Source: Psychroflexus tropicus DSM 15496 (GTDB lineage Bacteria; Bacteroidota; Bacteroidia; Flavobacteriales; Flavobacteriaceae). Taken from it: 64,000 nucleotides of DNA. Below, piece by piece: positions 6,092 to 59,533 of the stretch (position 1 is the stretch's first letter; every line of letters begins with the position of its first letter). Position numbers and translations under genes: made by a program. The DNA is taken from the NCBI RefSeq assembly GCF_000378765.1, contig NZ_KB905342.1:434001-498000 (forward strand), given 5' to 3'. The notes under the pieces were generated by a model that ran no database searches, was not told where the DNA came from, and was given only the letters and a program-made list of their open reading frames with translations.

Positions 6092-7963
6092 TTATCTTCC
6101 CATATGAACTAAAAGGACCGATACATCACTTGGATTGACGCCGCTTACTCTTGAAGCTTGAGATACTGTCCTTGGTTTGATTTTACTTAATTTTTCTCTG
6201 GCTTCATATGACATTGATTTTAGAAGCGAATAATCAAAGTGTTCTGGAATTTTTACATTTTCTAGACGATTGAGTTTGTCAGCATTTTGTTTTTCTTTTT
6301 CAATGTAGCCTGCATATTTCACCTGAACTTCTACTTGTTCTAGCACCTCGTTATCGATGTCATTTTCTTGAATGAATTGTTCAACGCTTTCTAGTTGTCG
6401 CATATCTTGCATCGTGATGTTTGGACGTGCAAATATTTTAAAGAGTTTTCCTTGCTGATCAACTTTTGAAGAATTTTTGGCTTCCAGTATAGGATTAATT
6501 TCAGAAGTAGTGACGCTCTGGTTTTCGAAAAACTTGACAAAAGCCTCAGACTTGTTTTGTTTTTCTTCCATTAACCTCATGCGTTCTTCGCCTGCTAATC
6601 CAAGTTCATATGATTTTGCAGTTAATCTAAAATCTGCATTATCCTGTCTCAGTAAGGTTCTATACTCTGCCCTTGACGTAAACATTCGATAAGGCTCTTC
6701 TGTGCCTTTCGTGATCAAATCATCTATAAGCACTCCAATGTAAGCTTCGCTTCTGGATAAAGTAAACTCTTCTTTTTTCTGAACTTTTAAGGCTGCATTA
6801 ATTCCAGCTATCATTCCTTGAGAAGCGGCTTCTTCATATCCAGTGGTGCCGTTGATTTGTCCTGCGAAGTATAGCCCATCCACTAATTTAGTTTCAAGCG
6901 TATGTCTTAATTGAGTGGGTGGAAAATAATCGTATTCTATCGCATAACCTGGTCTAAAGAATTTTACATTTTCAAATCCAGCGCAGCGTTTCAATGCTTT
7001 GTATTGAATGTCTTCTGGTAATGAAGTAGAAAATCCATTAACGTAATATTCAACCGTATTCCATCCTTCAGGTTCTACGAACATTTGGTGTCTGTCTTTA
7101 TCGGCGAATCGGTGAATTTTATCTTCTATACTTGGGCAATATCTAGGTCCGGTACTTTTAATAGCACCATTAAACATCGGTGACCTGTCAAAGCCCTCTT
7201 TTAAAAGTTCATGAACTTCATTAGAAGTATAACTCATCCAGCAACTTCTTTGTTTTTGTAGCGGTTGCGTTTCGTTTAAGTATGAAAATTTCCAAGGTTC
7301 TTCATCGCCTGGTTGTTCGATCATTTTAGAAAAATCTAAGGATCTCCCATCCACTCGTGGAGGTGTTCCGGTTTTCATCCGTCCTGCTTCAAATCCAAGA
7401 TCCTCTAGTTCTTTAGTAATTCCAAAAGAAGCCCGCTCTCCTGCTCTTCCTCCACCAAAGTTTTTATCTCCAATATGAATTAAACCATTTAAAAAGGTTC
7501 CATTAGTTAGGATAACTGTTTTTGCTTTAATTTCTAAACCGAGAGAGGTTTTTACTCCCACAAGTTTATTGTTTTTTACGATTAAGCCAGAAACCATTTC
7601 CTGATAAAAATCAAGATTCTCTGTTTTCTCCAGACGTTCTCTCCAGTGCTGTGAAAACAACATTCGATCACTTTGCACACGAGGACTCCACATGGCAGGC
7701 CCTTTCGATTTGTTTAGCATTTTAAATTGAATGGCACTGGTATCCGACACTAAACCACTGTAGCCTCCAAGAGCATCGATTTCTCTCAGTATTTGCCCCT
7801 TGGCAATTCCTCCCATAGCAGGATTACAAGACATTTGTGCAATGTTCTGCAAATTCATGGTCACCAGCAAGGTGCTGCTTCCCATGTTCGCTGCAGCTGC
7901 TGCAGCCTCGCTTCCAGCGTGACCAGCTCCTACTACAATCACATCATACTTATCCTTAAACAT
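6092..7963 (-). CDS. mnmG: tRNA uridine-5-carboxymethylaminomethyl modification enzyme MnmG
   Basis: FAD-dependent subunit of the MnmE-MnmG complex that modifies U34 of several tRNAs. The N-terminal dinucleotide-binding motif is VIVVGAGHAGSEAAAAAA (residues 8-25). CNPAMGGIAKG (around 46-56) and the family signatures SRAEYR and FTSRAEY are present. 623 aa matches the usual length. It starts 5 nt after ybeY. In many bacteria this gene (gidA) lies near the replication origin; here it is bracketed by two parS-like palindromes, which fits that placement. Confidence 0.97.
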   Translation of the reverse strand: MFKDKYDVIVVGAGHAGSEAAAAAANMGSSTLLVTMNLQNIAQMSCNPAMGGIAKGQILREIDALGGYSGLVSDTSAIQFKMLNKSKGPAMWSPRVQSDRMLFSQHWRERLEKTENLDFYQEMVSGLIVKNNKLVGVKTSLGLEIKAKTVILTNGTFLNGLIHIGDKNFGGGRAGERASFGITKELEDLGFEAGRMKTGTPPRVDGRSLDFSKMIEQPGDEEPWKFSYLNETQPLQKQRSCWMSYTSNEVHELLKEGFDRSPMFNGAIKSTGPRYCPSIEDKIHRFADKDRHQMFVEPEGWNTVEYYVNGFSTSLPEDIQYKALKRCAGFENVKFFRPGYAIEYDYFPPTQLRHTLETKLVDGLYFAGQINGTTGYEEAASQGMIAGINAALKVQKKEEFTLSRSEAYIGVLIDDLITKGTEEPYRMFTSRAEYRTLLRQDNADFRLTAKSYELGLAGEERMRLMEEKQNKSEAFVKFFENQSVTTSEINPILEAKNSSKVDQQGKLFKIFARPNITMQDMRQLESVEQFIQENDIDNEVLEQVEVQVKYAGYIEKEKQNADKLNRLENVKIPEHFDYSLLKSMSYEAREKLSKIKPRTVSQASRVSGVNPSDVSVLLVHMGR

Positions 7964-24370: not shown

Positions 24371-26722
24371 ATGACCTTATCATTTAGATTTTTATTTTTC
24401 GCTCTAGTCGTAAGCACTTTAAGCTACGCCCAATCTGATTTATCAGTTCAAAAGATTATGCAAGATCCCAATTGGATGGGGACTTTTCCGTCTGGTGTAG
24501 AATGGGACGAACAGTCTAGTACGATTTATTTTGATTATAATCCAGAACAAAATGTATCAGATTCTTTATATAAAATCCGGTTATCCAATACATCTGAAAT
24601 TTCAAAAGTAAGTCTGGAGGAAAGAAAGACCAAGGTTTCGCGTTATGGGGACTATAATGAGAAACGAACACATAAACTGTTTACTCAATCTGGGGATCTT
24701 TACCTTCATAATATCAAGACTAATACCACCCAGCTGGTCTTAGACTTAAGTGATCGCATTCAATCCCCTCGGTTTATAACTGATGATGAATATGGGTTTA
24801 TCAGTAATAATAACTTTTTTGTCTATAATAAAAAGAAAGGGCAAATTCAGAAGAAAACCAATATACAAACAGGAAGTGCAAACGACAGGAGTTCACAGAA
24901 ATCTGAAAAAAATCAATGGCTAGAAGATGAAAATCTGGATTTACTTCAAGAGGTGAGAGTCCAAAAAGAAAATTCAGAATTGAGAGAACAAAATCAGGAT
25001 CTGTTAAGTGATAATTCCTATACACATTATTTGGGTAAGGAAAGAGCGTTTAATTTCAATATTAGTAACACAGGAAACTTTCTAACCTTCCAGACCTATA
25101 CTCCAGAATCCCCAGATAACACCATGGTGCCAAATTATGTAGATGCCTCTGGTTACACTGAACCTTTGAATACCAGAAGTAAAGTGGGCGACCAAACTGC
25201 ACAGCGAGATCTTTACCTCTACCATATCATGAAGGACACAGTTTTCAAAGTAGATGTGTCTACTTTGCCTGGCATTACAGACTTACCATCCTATACAGAA
25301 CATTATCCTGATCGTGAGTGGGAAGAGCAAAAAAGGGCCGTAAGTTTCTCCGACGTACAGTTTTCTTCGCAGGATCAGAAGGCAGTGGTTTCAATTCGAG
25401 CTCAGGACAATAAGGATCGTTGGATAGCGCTTATCGATTTAAACACAGGAAGCCTCAGCACTTTGGACCGGCAACACGACGATGCCTGGATTGCCGGACC
25501 TGGTATAGGCAGTTATTATGGTGGTGGCACTTTAGGATGGTTACCAGATGATAAGCATGTTTTTTATCAGTCTGAAGCCACCGGCTATTCGCATTTATAC
25601 CTGCACGATGTAGAAAGCAATACTCAAAAGCAACTCACCGAAGGGGCTTACGAAGTCTTTAATCCACAGTTGTCCAACGATCAAAAGTCTTGGTATTTTA
25701 CGTCTTCTGAAGTCCATCCTGGAGAGCGTCATTTTTACAAAATGCCTGTCATGGGCGGAAAGGCAATACAACTCACCTCCATGGCAGGTAAGAACACTGT
25801 ATTTCTTTCTCCAGACGAGAAGCAGATGGCGATTCTATTTTCAAGCTCCAATACGCCTGAGGAATTATACCTAAAGAAAGCCAAAGCTAAGGCTATACCC
25901 CAACAGTTAACGAGTGGGCAATCGGATGACTTTAGTGCATACAACTGGAGATTCCCAGAATTGATTCAATTTGAAGCTGAAGATGGAGCTCAACCTTATG
26001 CGAGATTATATAAGCCAGAGGAAAGTGTTAATAACAAGGCTGCGGTGATTTTTGTTCACGGTGCCGGGTATTTGCAGAATGCACACAAATGGTGGTCGAG
26101 CTATTTTAGAGAATATATGTTTCATAATCTGCTAACTGATTTAGGATACACGGTTTTAGATATCGACTATAGAGGAAGTGCCGGCTACGGTAGAGACTGG
26201 AGAACTGGTATTTACAGACACATGGGTGGTAAAGACTTATCGGACCAAGTGGATGGTGCAAAATACCTAATCGAAAATCACGGTGTGAATCCAGAGAAGA
26301 TAGGCATCTACGGCGGAAGCTACGGAGGCTTTATCACTTTAATGGCCATGTTCAATGAAGCCGATACCTTTGCAGCAGGAGCTGCCTTAAGATCGGTGAC
26401 CGATTGGGCGCATTATAACCATGGGTATACCTCCAATATTTTAAATGAACCTCATCTCGACCCCGTAGCTTACAGACGTTCTTCTCCAATTTACTTTGCT
26501 GAAGGGCTGGAAGGTAACTTGCTGATAGCTCACGGGGTGATTGATACCAATGTGCATTTTCAGGATGTCGTAAGGCTTTCTCAACGTTTGATTGAGCTCG
26601 AAAAAGAGAATTGGGAAATGGCCTTGTATCCTATCGAAGGACACGGCTTTACGCAGCCTAGTAGCTGGACCGATGAGTACCGACGAATTTTGAAGCTGTT
26701 TGAAGAGACGATTGGGAAGTAG
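24371..26722 (+). CDS. S9 family prolyl oligopeptidase/DPP IV-like peptidase
   Basis: 783-aa exported serine peptidase. Signal peptide MTLSFRFLFFALVVSTLSYAQ. Residues 40-510 form the beta-propeller part, with WD-like blades such as GWLPDDKHVFYQSEATGYSH and STNTPEE-type turns. The alpha/beta-hydrolase domain carries the nucleophile in GGSYGGFITLM (Ser about 650), Asp in HGVIDTNVH (about 725) and His in IEGHGF (about 758). The spacing fits S9B/S9C enzymes that trim dipeptides or oligopeptides in the periplasm. Monocistronic. Confidence 0.9.
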   Translation: MTLSFRFLFFALVVSTLSYAQSDLSVQKIMQDPNWMGTFPSGVEWDEQSSTIYFDYNPEQNVSDSLYKIRLSNTSEISKVSLEERKTKVSRYGDYNEKRTHKLFTQSGDLYLHNIKTNTTQLVLDLSDRIQSPRFITDDEYGFISNNNFFVYNKKKGQIQKKTNIQTGSANDRSSQKSEKNQWLEDENLDLLQEVRVQKENSELREQNQDLLSDNSYTHYLGKERAFNFNISNTGNFLTFQTYTPESPDNTMVPNYVDASGYTEPLNTRSKVGDQTAQRDLYLYHIMKDTVFKVDVSTLPGITDLPSYTEHYPDREWEEQKRAVSFSDVQFSSQDQKAVVSIRAQDNKDRWIALIDLNTGSLSTLDRQHDDAWIAGPGIGSYYGGGTLGWLPDDKHVFYQSEATGYSHLYLHDVESNTQKQLTEGAYEVFNPQLSNDQKSWYFTSSEVHPGERHFYKMPVMGGKAIQLTSMAGKNTVFLSPDEKQMAILFSSSNTPEELYLKKAKAKAIPQQLTSGQSDDFSAYNWRFPELIQFEAEDGAQPYARLYKPEESVNNKAAVIFVHGAGYLQNAHKWWSSYFREYMFHNLLTDLGYTVLDIDYRGSAGYGRDWRTGIYRHMGGKDLSDQVDGAKYLIENHGVNPEKIGIYGGSYGGFITLMAMFNEADTFAAGAALRSVTDWAHYNHGYTSNILNEPHLDPVAYRRSSPIYFAEGLEGNLLIAHGVIDTNVHFQDVVRLSQRLIELEKENWEMALYPIEGHGFTQPSSWTDEYRRILKLFEETIGK

Positions 26723-26849
26723 AGATAAGATATTAGATGCAAGACTTAAGACATAAGAAACAGGGAATCATGATTTTTGGAACCACGAAACAAAACTTAT
26801 AAATCACAGGAATTTCAAATTTTGAATGCACAATGCCAATGGCCTCACG

Positions 26850-27018
26850 CATTCCTTTCGCTTTGCTAATCAGTTACAATAGGGAAAATAAATCCATCTT
26901 CTTCTCTTGAGGGAAGATTGAGATGGGTGTAATGTAGTAAGAAAGTTAGAATAAAGTTAGAATTTTTATTGGCGTGGACTTTATAAAAGAAAACCGCCTT
27001 GGTGGGAGGCGGTTTAAA
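26850..27018 (-). repeat. Repeat/terminator unit, copy A
   Basis: Shares with copies B and C the succession GCATTCCT, GAGGGAAG, GATTGAGATGGGTG, an A/T-rich spacer with AAGAAAGTT, then a GC-rich hairpin. The hairpin here is AAACCGCCT/AGGCGGTTT (26991-27015). It is downstream of peptide gene 1. Divergent at perhaps a third of positions, so older than a recent duplication. Confidence 0.6.
26989..27018 (-). terminator. Terminator after peptide module 1
   Basis: Stem AAACCGCCT (26991-26999) with AGGCGGTTT (27007-27015), A-rich to the left, giving a U-tract on minus-strand transcripts. Confidence 0.7.
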
Positions 27019-27093
27019 GTATAAGTTTTAAAATTTGGCTTTATCAGATCTTTTATTTAAATCAATTATTAAACCAATTGAAGACATTATCAT

Positions 27094-27210
27094 TTAAATA
27101 CTTATTAAGATTGCCATAGTTGTTTCTTTTTTACTCAACTCCAAAAATAAATAAACTCCAATTACAGATTCTAAAATAGTTAATGACAAAAATAAAAGCA
27201 CTTTTCGCAT
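27094..27210 (-). CDS. Tiny membrane peptide following GG-peptide gene 1
   Basis: 38-aa ORF starting MRKVLLFLSLTILESVIGVY at 27210, 15 nt after the stop of GG-peptide gene 1. One hydrophobic helix (residues 4-24) then a polar KKETT and another short hydrophobic end. Its position matches that of the 132-aa membrane protein behind GG-peptide gene 2, so it may be a matching partner (for example self-protection) or a remnant. No homology is claimed. Confidence 0.4.
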   Translation of the reverse strand: MRKVLLFLSLTILESVIGVYLFLELSKKETTMAILISI

Positions 27211-27224
27211 ATTTAAAATTTTAA

Positions 27225-27422
27225 TTATAGAAAGCAGCCAATCAAAGCAGGAGTTGCAAGGGCATAACTTATGGCAGCATAAGCAACAGGTGCTCGAACT
27301 CCAGTACTGAATAGGTCGGCTGCCGACACGCCAAAACTAGCAATTGCGAAGCCACACATAATGTCACCACCATCCAAACCTCCTTGCAAGTTTTCCATCT
27401 GTGTTAATTCTAAATTTTTCAT
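27225..27422 (-). CDS. Double-glycine-leader (bacteriocin-like) peptide 1
   Basis: 65-aa precursor. The correct start is MKNLELTQMENLQGG at 27422; an upstream ATG at 27452 lies in the conserved upstream region. The leader ends in the Gly-Gly motif recognised by peptidase-containing ABC exporters. The predicted 50-residue core, beginning LDGGDIMCGFAIASFG, is hydrophobic, rich in Ala and Gly, and has two cysteines (near each end) that could form a disulfide. The leader matches that of peptide 2 in its first 10 residues. No exporter gene is in the window. A secreted antimicrobial or signalling peptide is inferred. Confidence 0.75.
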   Translation of the reverse strand: MKNLELTQMENLQGGLDGGDIMCGFAIASFGVSAADLFSTGVRAPVAYAAISYALATPALIGCFL

Positions 27423-27478
27423 AAACATAAATATTAAGTTAGTGCCAAGCAAGTTTATAAGATTTAAAATTGGGCTTG
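27395..27478 (-). repeat. Duplicated leader/upstream region, copy 1
   Basis: About 85 bp covering the leader codons and upstream DNA is nearly identical to 28235-28318. It contains TTAGTGCCAAGCAA and GATTTAAAATTGGGCTTGG, so GCCAAGC and GCTTGG arms face each other about 23 nt apart. On the minus strand this precedes the start and could be an operator or a leader RNA hairpin. Confidence 0.7.
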
Positions 27479-27515
27479 GTGTATAGAAACACCCTTTGCC
27501 TGAGGCATTTCCCTA

Positions 27516-27647
27516 AAGGGAAAAACCCAACCTGAGCTTCCTCCCTTGAGGGAGGACTGAGGAGGGTGTTGAAAGTAAGAAACTTGAAATTCAATTTGGT
27601 GTTAACTTTAGAAAACCAAAAACCACCTCAAGTGGGAGGTGGTTTTA
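27516..27647 (-). repeat. Repeat/terminator unit, copy B
   Basis: Contains CTTGAGGGAGGACTGAGGAG, then GGTG, an A/T-rich spacer with AACTTTAGAAAA, and a hairpin. Closest to copy C, with which it shares the terminator sequence CCACCTC/GAGGTGG. Confidence 0.65.
27617..27647 (-). terminator. Terminator after peptide module 2
   Basis: AAAACCACCTC (27619-27629) pairs with GAGGTGGTTTT (27636-27646). Confidence 0.85.
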
Positions 27648-27665
27648 AAAATTTATTAAATTCTT

Positions 27666-28064
27666 CTAAAATATCTGAATCTCAAAAAATTTCTTTCTGT
27701 TTATAAAATTATAATATATAATCGGTAAGTAAAATATTAACACAAAAGTAGTTACATAAAAAACAGGTACAATATCTACAGTACCTAATACAAAAAGAAT
27801 CAGACCAATAAAAACACCAAAAAGATAATATGACATTGGTAATAGGTGCTTTATATTAAGAGTTGAACCATCAGTAAGAAAAACTTTCTTTTCTTTTTGG
27901 TGTATAAATGAGCTAATCGCTATATTATATTCTCCTTTTTTAGGCAGGTTTAACTTTAATTTTTGACCTGGCTTTAGTGAATAATTATCTCCATTAATAA
28001 AAACATTTATAGTACCATATGGTAATATATATCTTTTTAAAGTAATGTTAATATCGGTTTTCAT
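27666..28064 (-). CDS. Two-helix membrane protein following GG-peptide gene 2
   Basis: 132 aa. Residues 1-75 look like a small cytoplasmic beta domain (LKRYILPYGTINVFINGDNY, then KLNLPKKGEYNIAISSF). Residues 78-97 and 100-118 are two adjacent membrane helices, followed by a basic tail. It starts 12 nt after the GG-peptide 2 stop and shares its terminator. Small multi-helix membrane proteins directly behind bacteriocin genes are often immunity proteins; here that is inferred only from position and topology. Confidence 0.6.
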   Translation of the reverse strand: MKTDINITLKRYILPYGTINVFINGDNYSLKPGQKLKLNLPKKGEYNIAISSFIHQKEKKVFLTDGSTLNIKHLLPMSYYLFGVFIGLILFVLGTVDIVPVFYVTTFVLIFYLPIIYYNFINRKKFFEIQIF

Positions 28065-28076
28065 AATTAAGCTATT

Positions 28077-28262
28077 TTAATTGTAGTGGCAATAAGCTGA
28101 ACCAATCCATGCTCCAATAGCTGTGGGCGCAAATATTAAATTGGCACCTGGTATTAAAGATCCCGCTGATGCTACTCCACCAATCCAAAGCAAGGCTTCT
28201 TCTTGTGCTGCTGAGCACCCCCCACTCAAATCTTCCATCTGAGTTAATTCTAAATTTTTCAT
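28077..28262 (-). CDS. Double-glycine-leader (bacteriocin-like) peptide 2
   Basis: 61-aa precursor starting MKNLELTQMEDLSGG at 28262; longer readings to 28370 run through the conserved upstream region and are rejected. The core starts directly with Cys after Gly-Gly (CSAAQEEALLWIGGVASAGS), is Gly/Ala/Ile-rich, and has a second Cys near the end (AYCHYN). Such a core suits a disulfide-bonded, membrane-active class II-like peptide. Leader and upstream DNA match peptide 1 while the cores differ, as expected of a family under diversifying selection or of a two-peptide system. Confidence 0.75.
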   Translation of the reverse strand: MKNLELTQMEDLSGGCSAAQEEALLWIGGVASAGSLIPGANLIFAPTAIGAWIGSAYCHYN

Positions 28263-28318
28263 AATTATATAATTTAAGTTAGTGCCAAGCAATTTTTTTA
28301 GATTTAAAATTGGGCTTG
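28235..28318 (-). repeat. Duplicated leader/upstream region, copy 2
   Basis: Near-identical partner of 27395-27478, including TTAAGTTAGTGCCAAGCAA and GATTTAAAATTGGGCTTGG. Confidence 0.7.
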
Positions 28319-28424
28319 GCGAACATAAACATATTTTGCCTATCGGCATAATGCATTCCTCTCGTTCCACTCGTCGGATGCAAGAAGGGAAAACTTAAAC
28401 ATTTAGATAACGAGATTTATATTT

Positions 28425-28562
28425 CCTACCTAGAGGGAGCCTGCCTTGCGTTTCTTGGCAAAGGCAGGGACTGAGGAGGGTGAATTGAAAATAATTGATT
28501 TAAAGTTCGGCTTAGCTCTAACTTTAGAAAAACAAAAAACCACCTCAGGGTGAGGTGGTTTT
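28425..28562 (-). repeat. Repeat/terminator unit, copy C
   Basis: GAGGGAGCC, GGGACTGAGGAGGGTG, then a spacer with CTAACTTTAGAAAA and a hairpin. It lies between the M13 peptidase gene and GG-peptide gene 2. An inserted TTTCTTGGCAAAGGCA segment distinguishes it from copy B. Confidence 0.65.
28534..28562 (-). terminator. Terminator after the M13 peptidase gene
   Basis: AACCACCTCA (28538-28547) pairs with TGAGGTGGTT (28551-28560) around GGG, with A and T runs on the two sides. Confidence 0.85.
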
Positions 28563-28598
28563 CATTAGAAAATATTATAGTTACATCTATAATGTATT

Positions 28599-30653
28599 TT
28601 ACCAGATTCTTACTCTGTCCTCTGGAGCAATATACATGTCATCTCCTTCTTTGATATCGAAAGCTTCGTAGAAGGCATCTATATTTTGAAGTGGGACGTA
28701 AGCTCTGTACTGTCCAGGAGAATGTGGGTCTGTTTTGACTTGAGTTCTTAAGGCCTCATCTCTTATTTTAGTTCTCCAAACCGTAGCCCAAGACATAAAG
28801 AAACGCTGTTCTGGGGTAAAACCATCGATCTTACCAGGCTTCTCAGTGTTCTCATAGTGAAGCATTAACCCGTCATAAGCCCCAAGCACTCCACCAAGGT
28901 CTCCAATGTTTTCACCTAGGGTAAATTTACCGTTGATGTAAACACTATCTAAAACTTCAATACTGCTGTATAATTCAGCTAAATTGTTTCCACGCTCTGT
29001 AAACTTCTCGAGATCCTGATCGGTCCACCAGTTTTTTAGGTTACCGTTGGCATCAAATCTAGAACCGCTATCATCAAAAGCATGAGAGATTTCATGGCCA
29101 ATCACAGCTCCAATACCTCCATAATTCACGGCATCATCTGCCTTGTAATCGTAAAAAGGTGGCTGTAAAATGGCAGCTGGGAAAACGATTTCATTGTATA
29201 ATGGGTTGAAGTAAGCATTAACGGTTTGCGGAGACATTCCCCATTCCGTTTTGTCTACAGGCTCACCGATTTTGCTAAGGTTATCCTTATAGTTCCACAT
29301 GGCTACTGCCTGCATGTTTTCATAAAACGTCTTATCTGAAGTCACTTCTAAGTCGCTGTAATCTTCAAATTCGTCTGGGTAACCAATTTTTACTGTGAAT
29401 TTATTTAGTTTTTCAACAGCTTTGGTTTTGGTGGAGTCCTGCATCCACTCCAAGTCGTTGATTCTGTTTTTGAAGGCTGTAATGACATTTCCAACCATTT
29501 TTTCAGCCTTTTCTTTAGCTTCTGGCGGGAATTTTTGGTCCACGTACAATTTACCAACAGCTTCGCCGATACTACCATTTACTACAGATAACGCTCTTTC
29601 GTCCAGAGGACGTTGTGCTTTAGCACCGCTCAAAGTTTTGCTATAAAACTCCCAGTTGGTGGTAGCAATATCAGTAGATAACTGGTTAGCAGCATCGTTG
29701 ATGGTAGACCAGGTCATTAAGGTTTTAAGATCGTTTAATGAAGTCTCTGCCATCATTTGATCTAAAGCTTCCATGTATTTAGGTTCCATTACCAAAACCG
29801 TATCTGGCAGGCTCTCAACCCCTAAATCAGTCATGTAAGCTTTTAAATCTATATTTTGTGTCACCTGATCTAAGTCGCTTACCGCATAACGGTTATTGTA
29901 GTTTCTAAAATCTCTTCGAGCCACTTTATCCAATCTAGGTTCAGCGAGCTGAGTTTCCAAGGCAAGGATGGTTTCAGCCTTAAATTTGGCATCCTCTTTA
30001 GAGCCTCCAAAGTAAGCCATCATCTTTACGATATGCTCTTTATACTGTTCTCTTATTTCTTTGGATTTATCATCCTGATCTAAGTAATAATCTCTGTCTG
30101 GTAAGCCTAAGCCTCCAGTACCTACGTAAGCAACATTGGTATTACTATCGTCTGGGTCTGAGTAGGCAGACACTCCAAAAAATGGAGTAGAAATAGATGT
30201 TGGCATTTCAGCCATCAGTTTTTGTATCTCTTCTTTGGCTTGGATCTCTTCAATACGGTCCAGTTTGTCCATAATAGGATCTACGCCTGCAACATTTCTC
30301 GACACTGTATCCATTATCGAATTAAAAACCGCAATGGCTTTTCCCTGGTCTGAGTCTGAACTGTACTTTCCAGATTCTTCTGCAGTTTTTAAAATCTCCA
30401 ACACATCATTGTCGGTTGATTTTCTTAAAATTTGAAATCCACCCCATGAGGTCCTGTCATCTGGAATTTCTGCGGTTTTCATCCATCCTCCATTGACGTA
30501 ACTATAGAAGTCGTCTTTTGGTGCAACTGTGGTGTCCATGTATTGCAGGGCTATACCTCTGCTCTCGTCGTTCGATTCCTTTTTAGAATCCTGACACGAA
30601 AAAAATAATGTTGACGCTCCAATAGCGACAAACATCAATTTCACTTTGTTCAT
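28599..30653 (-). CDS. M13 family zinc metallopeptidase (neprilysin/PepO-like) lipoprotein
   Basis: 684-aa exported oligopeptidase. The N-terminus, MNKVKLMFVAIGASTLFFSC, is a lipoprotein signal with the cysteine at about residue 20. The catalytic zinc motif is VIGHEISHAFDDSG (HEISH about 520-524), with the third ligand Glu in GENIGDLGG (about 581). NAYFNPLYNEIVFPAAILQPP is the substrate-binding NAF/Y motif, and the C-terminus ends VRIW in place of the neprilysin CxxW. Cuts short peptides in the periplasm or at the surface. It neighbours the peptide locus but has its own terminator. Confidence 0.93.
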   Translation of the reverse strand: MNKVKLMFVAIGASTLFFSCQDSKKESNDESRGIALQYMDTTVAPKDDFYSYVNGGWMKTAEIPDDRTSWGGFQILRKSTDNDVLEILKTAEESGKYSSDSDQGKAIAVFNSIMDTVSRNVAGVDPIMDKLDRIEEIQAKEEIQKLMAEMPTSISTPFFGVSAYSDPDDSNTNVAYVGTGGLGLPDRDYYLDQDDKSKEIREQYKEHIVKMMAYFGGSKEDAKFKAETILALETQLAEPRLDKVARRDFRNYNNRYAVSDLDQVTQNIDLKAYMTDLGVESLPDTVLVMEPKYMEALDQMMAETSLNDLKTLMTWSTINDAANQLSTDIATTNWEFYSKTLSGAKAQRPLDERALSVVNGSIGEAVGKLYVDQKFPPEAKEKAEKMVGNVITAFKNRINDLEWMQDSTKTKAVEKLNKFTVKIGYPDEFEDYSDLEVTSDKTFYENMQAVAMWNYKDNLSKIGEPVDKTEWGMSPQTVNAYFNPLYNEIVFPAAILQPPFYDYKADDAVNYGGIGAVIGHEISHAFDDSGSRFDANGNLKNWWTDQDLEKFTERGNNLAELYSSIEVLDSVYINGKFTLGENIGDLGGVLGAYDGLMLHYENTEKPGKIDGFTPEQRFFMSWATVWRTKIRDEALRTQVKTDPHSPGQYRAYVPLQNIDAFYEAFDIKEGDDMYIAPEDRVRIW

Positions 30654-58636: not shown

Positions 58637-59533
58637 TTAAGAGTTAACAGCTTCGGTTTCGTCTGCTTTGAGGTGAACAAAATACACATCGCTTAGATCT
58701 GGCTGGACTTGCACAAACTCTTCTCCGGGCTTTACGTCTCCGTAAACGCGAATATTCAAAGAATTATCTTGATTATAATTTGAAGAAATTAAGTTAAACC
58801 TTGTCTCAAAGTTTTCTAACTCTTCTCGATCTATGGTTTGTCCCCAAATCTTGCCATTTAGGTCCAGAACTGCATCAGCTGGTTTTTTATGGCATAAAAG
58901 TTTACCTCCGTTCAGGATGGCCATATCGGTACAAAGTTCTTTGACATCATCTACTATGTGAGTGGATAAGATCACGATATGATTGGTCCCTATCTCTCTC
59001 AAAACGTTGAGGAAACGGTGGCGTTCTGCTGGGTCTAGGCCGGCAGTAGGCTCATCAACAATTATAAGCTTAGGGCTATTCAGCAATAACTGGGCAATAC
59101 CGAAACGCTGTTTCATCCCGCCAGAGTAGCCGGCCACATATTTGTTTTTGACGCTGTATAGATTAGTCACTTCTAAAGCATAATCTACAATTTTCTTCCG
59201 GTCTGCTTTGTTGGCAACCCCTTTCAATTCAGCAAAATAATGCAGTAAATTTTCGGCAGAGAGTTTTGGATACACCCCAAAAGACTGAGGCAGATAGCCT
59301 AAGACTTTTCTCAAATCCATTTTCTGATTTAAAATATCGATGTCATCCAGATGAATTTCTCCACGATCGGGTTGTTGTAAGGTGGCGATGGTTCGCATTA
59401 GCGTAGATTTTCCAGCTCCATTAGGACCTAGAAGCCCAAACATCCCAGAGTTGATTTCAATGGAGACATTATCTAAGGCCTTAACACCGTTTTTATAGGT
59501 TTTGGAAACATTAAGTAGGCGAAGTGTATTCAT
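58637..59533 (-). CDS. ABC transporter ATP-binding protein
   Basis: 298-aa ATPase. Walker A GLLGPNGAGKSTLMRT (about residues 33-48), Q-loop in YLPQSFGVYP, signature YSGGMKQRFGIAQ, Walker B LIIVDEPTAGLDPAERHR, H-loop in ILSTHIVDD. The C-terminal extension (residues 215-298) is typical for ABC-2 transporters. It should power the permease/M1 fusion encoded directly downstream. Confidence 0.93.
   Translation of the reverse strand: MNTLRLLNVSKTYKNGVKALDNVSIEINSGMFGLLGPNGAGKSTLMRTIATLQQPDRGEIHLDDIDILNQKMDLRKVLGYLPQSFGVYPKLSAENLLHYFAELKGVANKADRKKIVDYALEVTNLYSVKNKYVAGYSGGMKQRFGIAQLLLNSPKLIIVDEPTAGLDPAERHRFLNVLREIGTNHIVILSTHIVDDVKELCTDMAILNGGKLLCHKKPADAVLDLNGKIWGQTIDREELENFETRFNLISSNYNQDNSLNIRVYGDVKPGEEFVQVQPDLSDVYFVHLKADETEAVNS

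Follow-up and report, generated by a model that had tools for sequence, protein, structure and literature searches.

Exporterless double-glycine-leader peptide units in Psychroflexus tropicus as probable stranded bacteriocin cassettes

Two short genes of Psychroflexus tropicus DSM 15496, pepA and pepB, encode precursor peptides with double-glycine (GG) leaders and are each followed by a membrane ORF, in a genome in which no C39-type exporter was found. From an analysis of a stretch of 64,000 nucleotides (the window) and of related genomes, referred to below by G numbers, we consider the two units to be stranded bacteriocin-plus-immunity cassettes without an exporter, at a probability of roughly 70%. 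Each cassette would consist of a conserved upstream element, a GG-leader precursor, a membrane immunity-like ORF and a terminator, present here twice, and both would derive from a bacteroidetocin- or class-II-microcin-like module of the Flavobacteriaceae. Where the module is complete, the leader would be bound via its hydrophobic residues at -4, -7, -12 and -15 by a C39 peptidase-ABC exporter, which would cut after the GG and secrete the core, a hydrophobic peptide rich in Gly/Ala (of 46 and 50 residues in the two peptides here). The cysteines of the core would probably form a disulfide, helped by a co-encoded thioredoxin-like protein, and the exported core would attack related bacteria. No exporter module was found in the window's genome, and we infer that it was lost rather than never present; the peptides would probably not be processed or secreted by the C39 route, and the cassettes would most likely be retained for the downstream immunity genes, or be decaying.

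On the minus strand the order from 5' to 3' is the 684-aa gene, upstream element, pepB, imB, hairpin, upstream element, pepA, imA and hairpin (Table 1), and the stretch holding both units is continuous in the assembly. The sequence-only reading of this DNA had pointed to two ORFs starting MKNLELTQME with leaders ending in GG, leaving the strand unstated; both are present, on the minus strand. The site is bordered by the 684-aa gene, presumably coding for an M13-type metallopeptidase, and by the convergent 783-aa gene, whose product we take to be an S9-type peptidase.

Table 1. Positions in the window of the pepA and pepB units and of the genes bordering their site.
Feature	Position	Strand	Basis
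pepA: GG-leader precursor, 65 aa	27225-27422	-	ORF and translation
pepB: GG-leader precursor, 61 aa	28077-28262	-	ORF and translation
imA: 38-aa membrane ORF, candidate immunity gene	27094-27210	-	role inferred from position only
imB: 132-aa membrane ORF, candidate immunity gene	27666-28064	-	role from position
Terminator-like hairpin, 3' of pepA unit	26991-27015	-	terminator scan
Terminator-like hairpin, 3' of pepB unit	27619-27646	-	terminator scan
Conserved upstream element of pepA	27423-27501	-	repeat and pattern search
Conserved upstream element of pepB	28263-28341	-	repeat and pattern search
684-aa flank gene, one border of the site	28599-30653	-	
783-aa flank gene, other border of the site, convergent	24371-26722	+	

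Both leaders are 15 aa long (MKNLELTQME..GG), with the GG as residues 14-15, and carry M-15, L-12, M-7 and L-4. Hydrophobic residues at -4, -7, -12 and -15 are those via which C39 exporters (PCATs) bind leaders, according to the available text of PMC7018657, and this pattern together with the GG end was found in pepA and pepB alike. The cores differ and have two cysteines each, as had been read from the sequence before, at core positions 8 and 48 of the 50-aa pepA core and at positions 1 and 43 of the 46-aa pepB core. Taken together with those of relatives, 11 cores were 33-53 residues long, with 29-53% Gly/Ala/Val and a net charge of -1 to -5; net negative cores are unusual for Gram-positive class II bacteriocins, which counts against the bacteriocin reading. 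Of the 11 cores, 10 had a cysteine close to each end, while 5000 shuffles gave a mean of 2.0 and a highest value of 7, the limits for 'close' having been chosen after the data were seen, and the cores of G007 and G018 have extra cysteines.

Neither precursor had a meaningful match to any Pfam, NCBIfam, PHROGs or PADLOC model, and for NCBIfam none was listed at E values up to 10 with the HMMER filters on. The model of rSAM-modified GG peptides (TIGR04149) listed no match for pepA or pepB, neither being above the family cut-off, and scored a G012 precursor at 13.5 bits and a G009 peptide at 20.2 bits, below the cut-off of 25. A genome-wide search for leaders of this type, proposed in the sequence-only reading, was carried out with the pattern TGAARAATYTNGAA and found seven places, two of them the window genes and the rest not GG precursors. 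In this genome TIGR01847 had two matches, which fell below the cut-off and lay in long ORFs; as it did not pick up pepA or pepB, further GG precursors may exist there.

The two units also share the DNA ahead of the genes. A direct repeat of 115 nt (27387-27501 and 28227-28341, 84% identical) covers about 36 nt within the leader codons and continues for about 79 nt ahead of them, so that the matching upstream DNA, earlier put at about 85 bp, comes to about 79 bp. A 41-nt degenerate pattern drawn from the repeat (up to 3 mismatches) had two matches in the window, while 100 shuffles gave none, and a 17-nt piece (up to one mismatch) was found in two of the 27 genus genomes, twice here and once in G007, with every occurrence preceding such a precursor. 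BLAST of the stretch, which trims alignment ends in a way that favours its identity figures, gave 90.6% over 96 nt in G015, 89.5% over 105 nt in G007 and 89.3% over 103 nt in G012, followed by G017 (86.7%), G018 (86.3%) and G024 (84.7%); the G024 match joins pepA upstream DNA, leader and early core to a precursor gene of that genome (blastn, 124 nt, 27331-27454). Since the similarity of these cross-species pieces is much the same as that between the two window copies, there is little to suggest that the pair arose by recent duplication. Sigma-70 scans are ill-suited to Bacteroidetes promoters, and in Rfam the region had only matches below gathering scores.

Downstream of the precursors, imA starts 14 nt after the pepA stop and imB 12 nt after the pepB stop, with one and two hydrophobic segments, respectively. 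The membrane ORF and terminator that had been described after each gene were thus confirmed, as ORFs of 38 and 132 aa and terminator-like hairpins. The terminator scan returned five sites in this region, of which two lay inside others, against 1.3 expected from shuffles. The frame continues open for another 21 codons past the imA stop (to about 27028), several imA counterparts have two hydrophobic segments, and imA may be a two-helix gene that has been broken; in that case exported pepA peptide might endanger its own producer. Between imA and the small ORFs of relatives no homology was found beyond short chance-level DNA matches, and against G012 there was a weak tblastx match (E 0.079).

For imB, N-terminal strands and two hydrophobic helices are predicted by a single-sequence structure model with a pLDDT of only 61.7; a PDB search gave nothing at E <= 0.001, and the model is given no weight as evidence of fold. 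Its plan resembles that of 131-aa ORFs following precursors in G017 and G145, which have two hydrophobic segments at like positions and are related to each other (27%, E 2e-15). Pairwise BLAST found no match between imB and this family, a two-row profile gave E 0.011 at a probability of 3.8%, and a six-row profile aligned by hhalign gave E 2.4e-4 at a probability of 43% over 111 columns. By these profiles, imB is probably related, at a distance, to a Flavobacteriaceae family of 131-146 aa. The family was matched in 14 of 198 genomes, and in 13 loci, short ones passed through a motif filter, a GG precursor adjoined it only in G017 and G069. The idea of a dedicated immunity family was weakened by this, most members seen not being beside GG precursors, and for the same reason the putative immunity role of imB rests on its position. 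A membrane ORF followed the precursor or precursor pair in every unit compared. Elsewhere in the window's genome (contig C7, 113-553) there is a 146-aa member of the strand-plus-two-helix family, with no precursor seen beside it.

The sequence-only reading had placed the exporter elsewhere in the genome and had called for a search for C39-peptidase ABC transporters, which found none in this genome. Peptidase_C39 (PF03412) gave 0 matches in the 3.0-Mb assembly, 100% complete in 16 contigs (control detected, 8/14), Peptidase_C39_2 (PF13529) gave none (control, 3/14), and residues 1-146 of the G015 exporter matched nothing, while its first 450 residues matched only ABC membrane regions. The five ABC-exporter ORFs of this genome are 556-622 aa long, whereas the C39 exporters of G012, G015 and G024 have 719-722 aa; little is excluded by ORF length alone, because G009 has C39 as a separate protein of 340 aa. 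With the same PF03412 model, C39 was found in five of the 27 genus genomes (G009, G012, G013, G015 and G024). No exporter remnant was seen within 26701-28640, so that the locus itself gives no sign of loss here as against gain in G015. An ABC ATPase-like stretch of the window, at 58913-59524, has a match to the G015 exporter that is confined to its ATPase part (23%, E 4e-8).

The leader type recurs in other species of the genus, in keeping with the conservation among relatives on which the earlier proposal depended. The degenerate leader pattern without mismatches was found at eight places in six of 296 genomes, all of this genus: twice each in the window's genome (G000) and G007, and once each in G012, G015, G018 and G024, besides which G017 has two altered copies. 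Allowing up to 3 mismatches brought in 57 of the 296 genomes, and many of the weak matches must be chance, since a reversed control pattern matched 21; of the 30 loci read from that search, all outside the genus, two encode GG precursors. A pepB search of genome contigs returned one locus, in P. maritimus.

A modular GG-peptide system with diversified cores, as had been supposed, is borne out by genomes in which such genes stand beside a C39 exporter, in G015 with the same leader and in G172 with a similar one. At the same M13-S9 site, G015 has an open membrane frame (219 codons between stops), then a 175-aa thioredoxin-like protein and a 722-aa exporter that combines C39, ABC-membrane and ABC ATPase domains; two GG precursors are present as well, and a membrane ORF of 50 aa. 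The first of these precursors is MKNLELTQMEHLSGG, and one of the two has the window's leader. G172, from another genus, has a precursor, a 55-aa ORF, a 222-aa membrane ORF, a 175-aa ORF and an exporter of 724 aa sharing 64% identity with that of G015. The exporters of G012 and G024 lie elsewhere in their genomes, away from this site. A C39 exporter in the same genome as the precursor was thus found in G012, G015, G024 and G172; precursors without detected C39 were found in the window's genome, in G007, in G018 and in G017 (only 79% complete), and G145, of a further genus and 99% complete, has a precursor and the 131-aa membrane ORF without detected C39. At a contig end in G069, GG-leader precursors alternate with membrane ORFs in an array, and in the 12.8 kb examined there no match to two C39 domains was found.

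Class II microcins, such as microcin V, have a GG leader, a Gly/Ala-rich hydrophobic core and a small membrane immunity protein. The window units share the leader, the kind of core and a small membrane protein as candidate immunity factor; in contrast to the microcins, however, no HlyD-type gene was recognised in the G015 module, and the second G012 precursor met the Pfam microcin model only weakly (E 0.13), with no usable sequence similarity. In bacteroidetocin clusters the peptide, whose leader has 15-16 aa, is encoded together with a membrane protein, a thiol oxidoreductase and an ABC exporter of C39 type, and bacteroidetocins and bacteroidetocin-like peptides are proposed as class IIf in the available text of PMC6671954. 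Both window precursors likewise combine a 15-aa GG leader with at least two core cysteines, and G015 and G172 also have the membrane protein, thioredoxin-like protein and C39-ABC exporter. The core of pepB lies inside the 42-48 aa of the nearest relatives of bacteroidetocins A and B and that of pepA outside, and A and B have four cysteines where the window cores have two (PMC6671954). No obvious immunity gene is reported for bacteroidetocins in the text available, whereas a small membrane ORF follows each precursor here (PMC6671954). The companion genes (exporter, membrane protein and mostly thiol oxidoreductase) are present in G015 and G172 and were not found at the window locus; the window genes are therefore not classed as bacteroidetocin members, but only as probable derivatives of such a module. 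Exporterless pediocin-like operons of Lactobacillus share an intact precursor and an immunity-like gene without a transporter, but they are Gram-positive class IIa systems in which production followed on supplying a transporter, while the window units are known from genes alone (PMC6036575, as far as its text was available). The pair had been put forward as the best candidate in the window for an undescribed system, which is not supported, as the layout resembles bacteroidetocin-like clusters (PMC6671954) and exporterless cassettes have been described (PMC6036575).

Decay is favoured by damaged copies, perhaps by the stop in imA, and by the G004 site, with its small membrane ORFs and no leader found. 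The second G007 copy has lost its GG and has a different, shorter tail, and both G017 copies are damaged, one with a changed start codon and the other with the GG lost and an early stop. Damage thus affects three of eight copies without detected C39, G017 being only 79% complete, against none of six with it (two each in G012 and G015, one each in G024 and G172), a difference that is not significant (one-sided Fisher 0.15). Nonetheless, the four genomes of at least 99% completeness that were found to have the gene and no C39 (the window's genome, G007, G018 and G145) all keep one intact precursor or more, which could reflect selection rather than decay, in a sample biased by having been found via an intact leader. 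In the first 10 leader codons of the eight non-G017 copies, all seven differences from the consensus were synonymous, where of the 81 single changes possible in codons 2-10 there are 12 that would be so, with the proviso that the pattern tolerates synonymous changes better and is biased toward such copies; the two G017 copies had three non-synonymous differences. Retention for immunity fits both the decay and the selection evidence, and was offered as an explanation for the exporterless Lactobacillus operons (PMC6036575, available text); 'orphan' GG peptides have also been noted (PMC7018657, available text).

The same intact precursors in four C39-less genomes of at least 99% completeness, from two genera, and the same synonymous leader differences would also be accounted for if the peptides were still processed and secreted without C39, by another peptidase and an ordinary ABC exporter, or by lysis. 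We regard this as unlikely, since the leader fits the C39 rule, such genes stand beside C39 exporters in G015 and G172, the ORF list has no alternative exporter or peptidase between the flank genes, and copies in G007 and G017 are damaged. Similarly unlikely, in our estimate, is the proposition that several Flavobacteriaceae in which no C39 domain is detectable cleave and export these GG peptides by a peptidase or exporter not known to act on double-glycine leaders. An exporter hidden in an assembly gap, or on a plasmid outside the assembly, is suggested by the 16 contigs, and is quite improbable given the completeness of 100%, the unbroken stretch holding the units and the independent G007, G018 and G145 assemblies, which also lack C39.

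It is very improbable that pepA and pepB are halves of one two-peptide bacteriocin, a possibility raised in the sequence-only reading. The precursors are close together with one leader type, and G015 and G012 have two tandem precursors ahead of a small membrane ORF; class IIb systems, however, combine two precursors and a single immunity gene in one operon, whereas the window precursors form separate units, each with its own upstream element, downstream membrane ORF and terminator-like hairpin, and G024 and G018 have one precursor each in the stretches read. There is likewise only a very slight chance that the peptides are signals and not toxins: C39 exporters export pheromones too (PMC7018657, available text), but the cores are hydrophobic, of 46 and 50 aa with two cysteines, a membrane ORF lies directly 3' of each precursor, and no regulator-like ORF was recognised between the flank genes in the ORF list.

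Stranded cassettes thus being the preferred reading, the precursors are new to the model libraries searched, and the kind of system is already known. A literature search on Psychroflexus and bacteriocin found no title on such a system, though a printed account is possible, and as far as this limited search goes pepA and pepB are unstudied candidates. Within one genus, one chromosomal site presents a bacteriocin module in several states, namely full (G015), as exporterless cassettes (the window and G007), with no such peptide found (G001) and as membrane ORFs for which no leader was found (G004), and this series offers a natural test of why cells keep bacteriocin genes that apparently cannot be exported. 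The G004 site (about 1393-2398 of the fetched locus) has small membrane ORFs of 45, 56 and 103 aa, beside which stretches resemble Cys-containing cores by eye, and is possibly an immunity-only relic.

The interval between the flank genes (26722-28599 in the window) varies across the genus in other respects also. G001, G007 and G024 have there a gene of 524-528 aa, which we take to be Ppx/GppA-like; a gene to which we assign the same name adjoins the S9 gene in G012, and it had no match in the interval stretches of the window, G015, G025, G021 and G004. In G021 the interval holds a 153-aa transposase-like ORF (6760-7221 of the fetched locus), presumably of IS200/REP type. Between the units of the window a short sequence, ..TTGAGGGAGGACTGAGGAGGGTG, appears repeatedly (26898-26930, 27537-27569 and about 28468-28482), with similar pieces in G007 and G012, and looks like a dispersed repeat.
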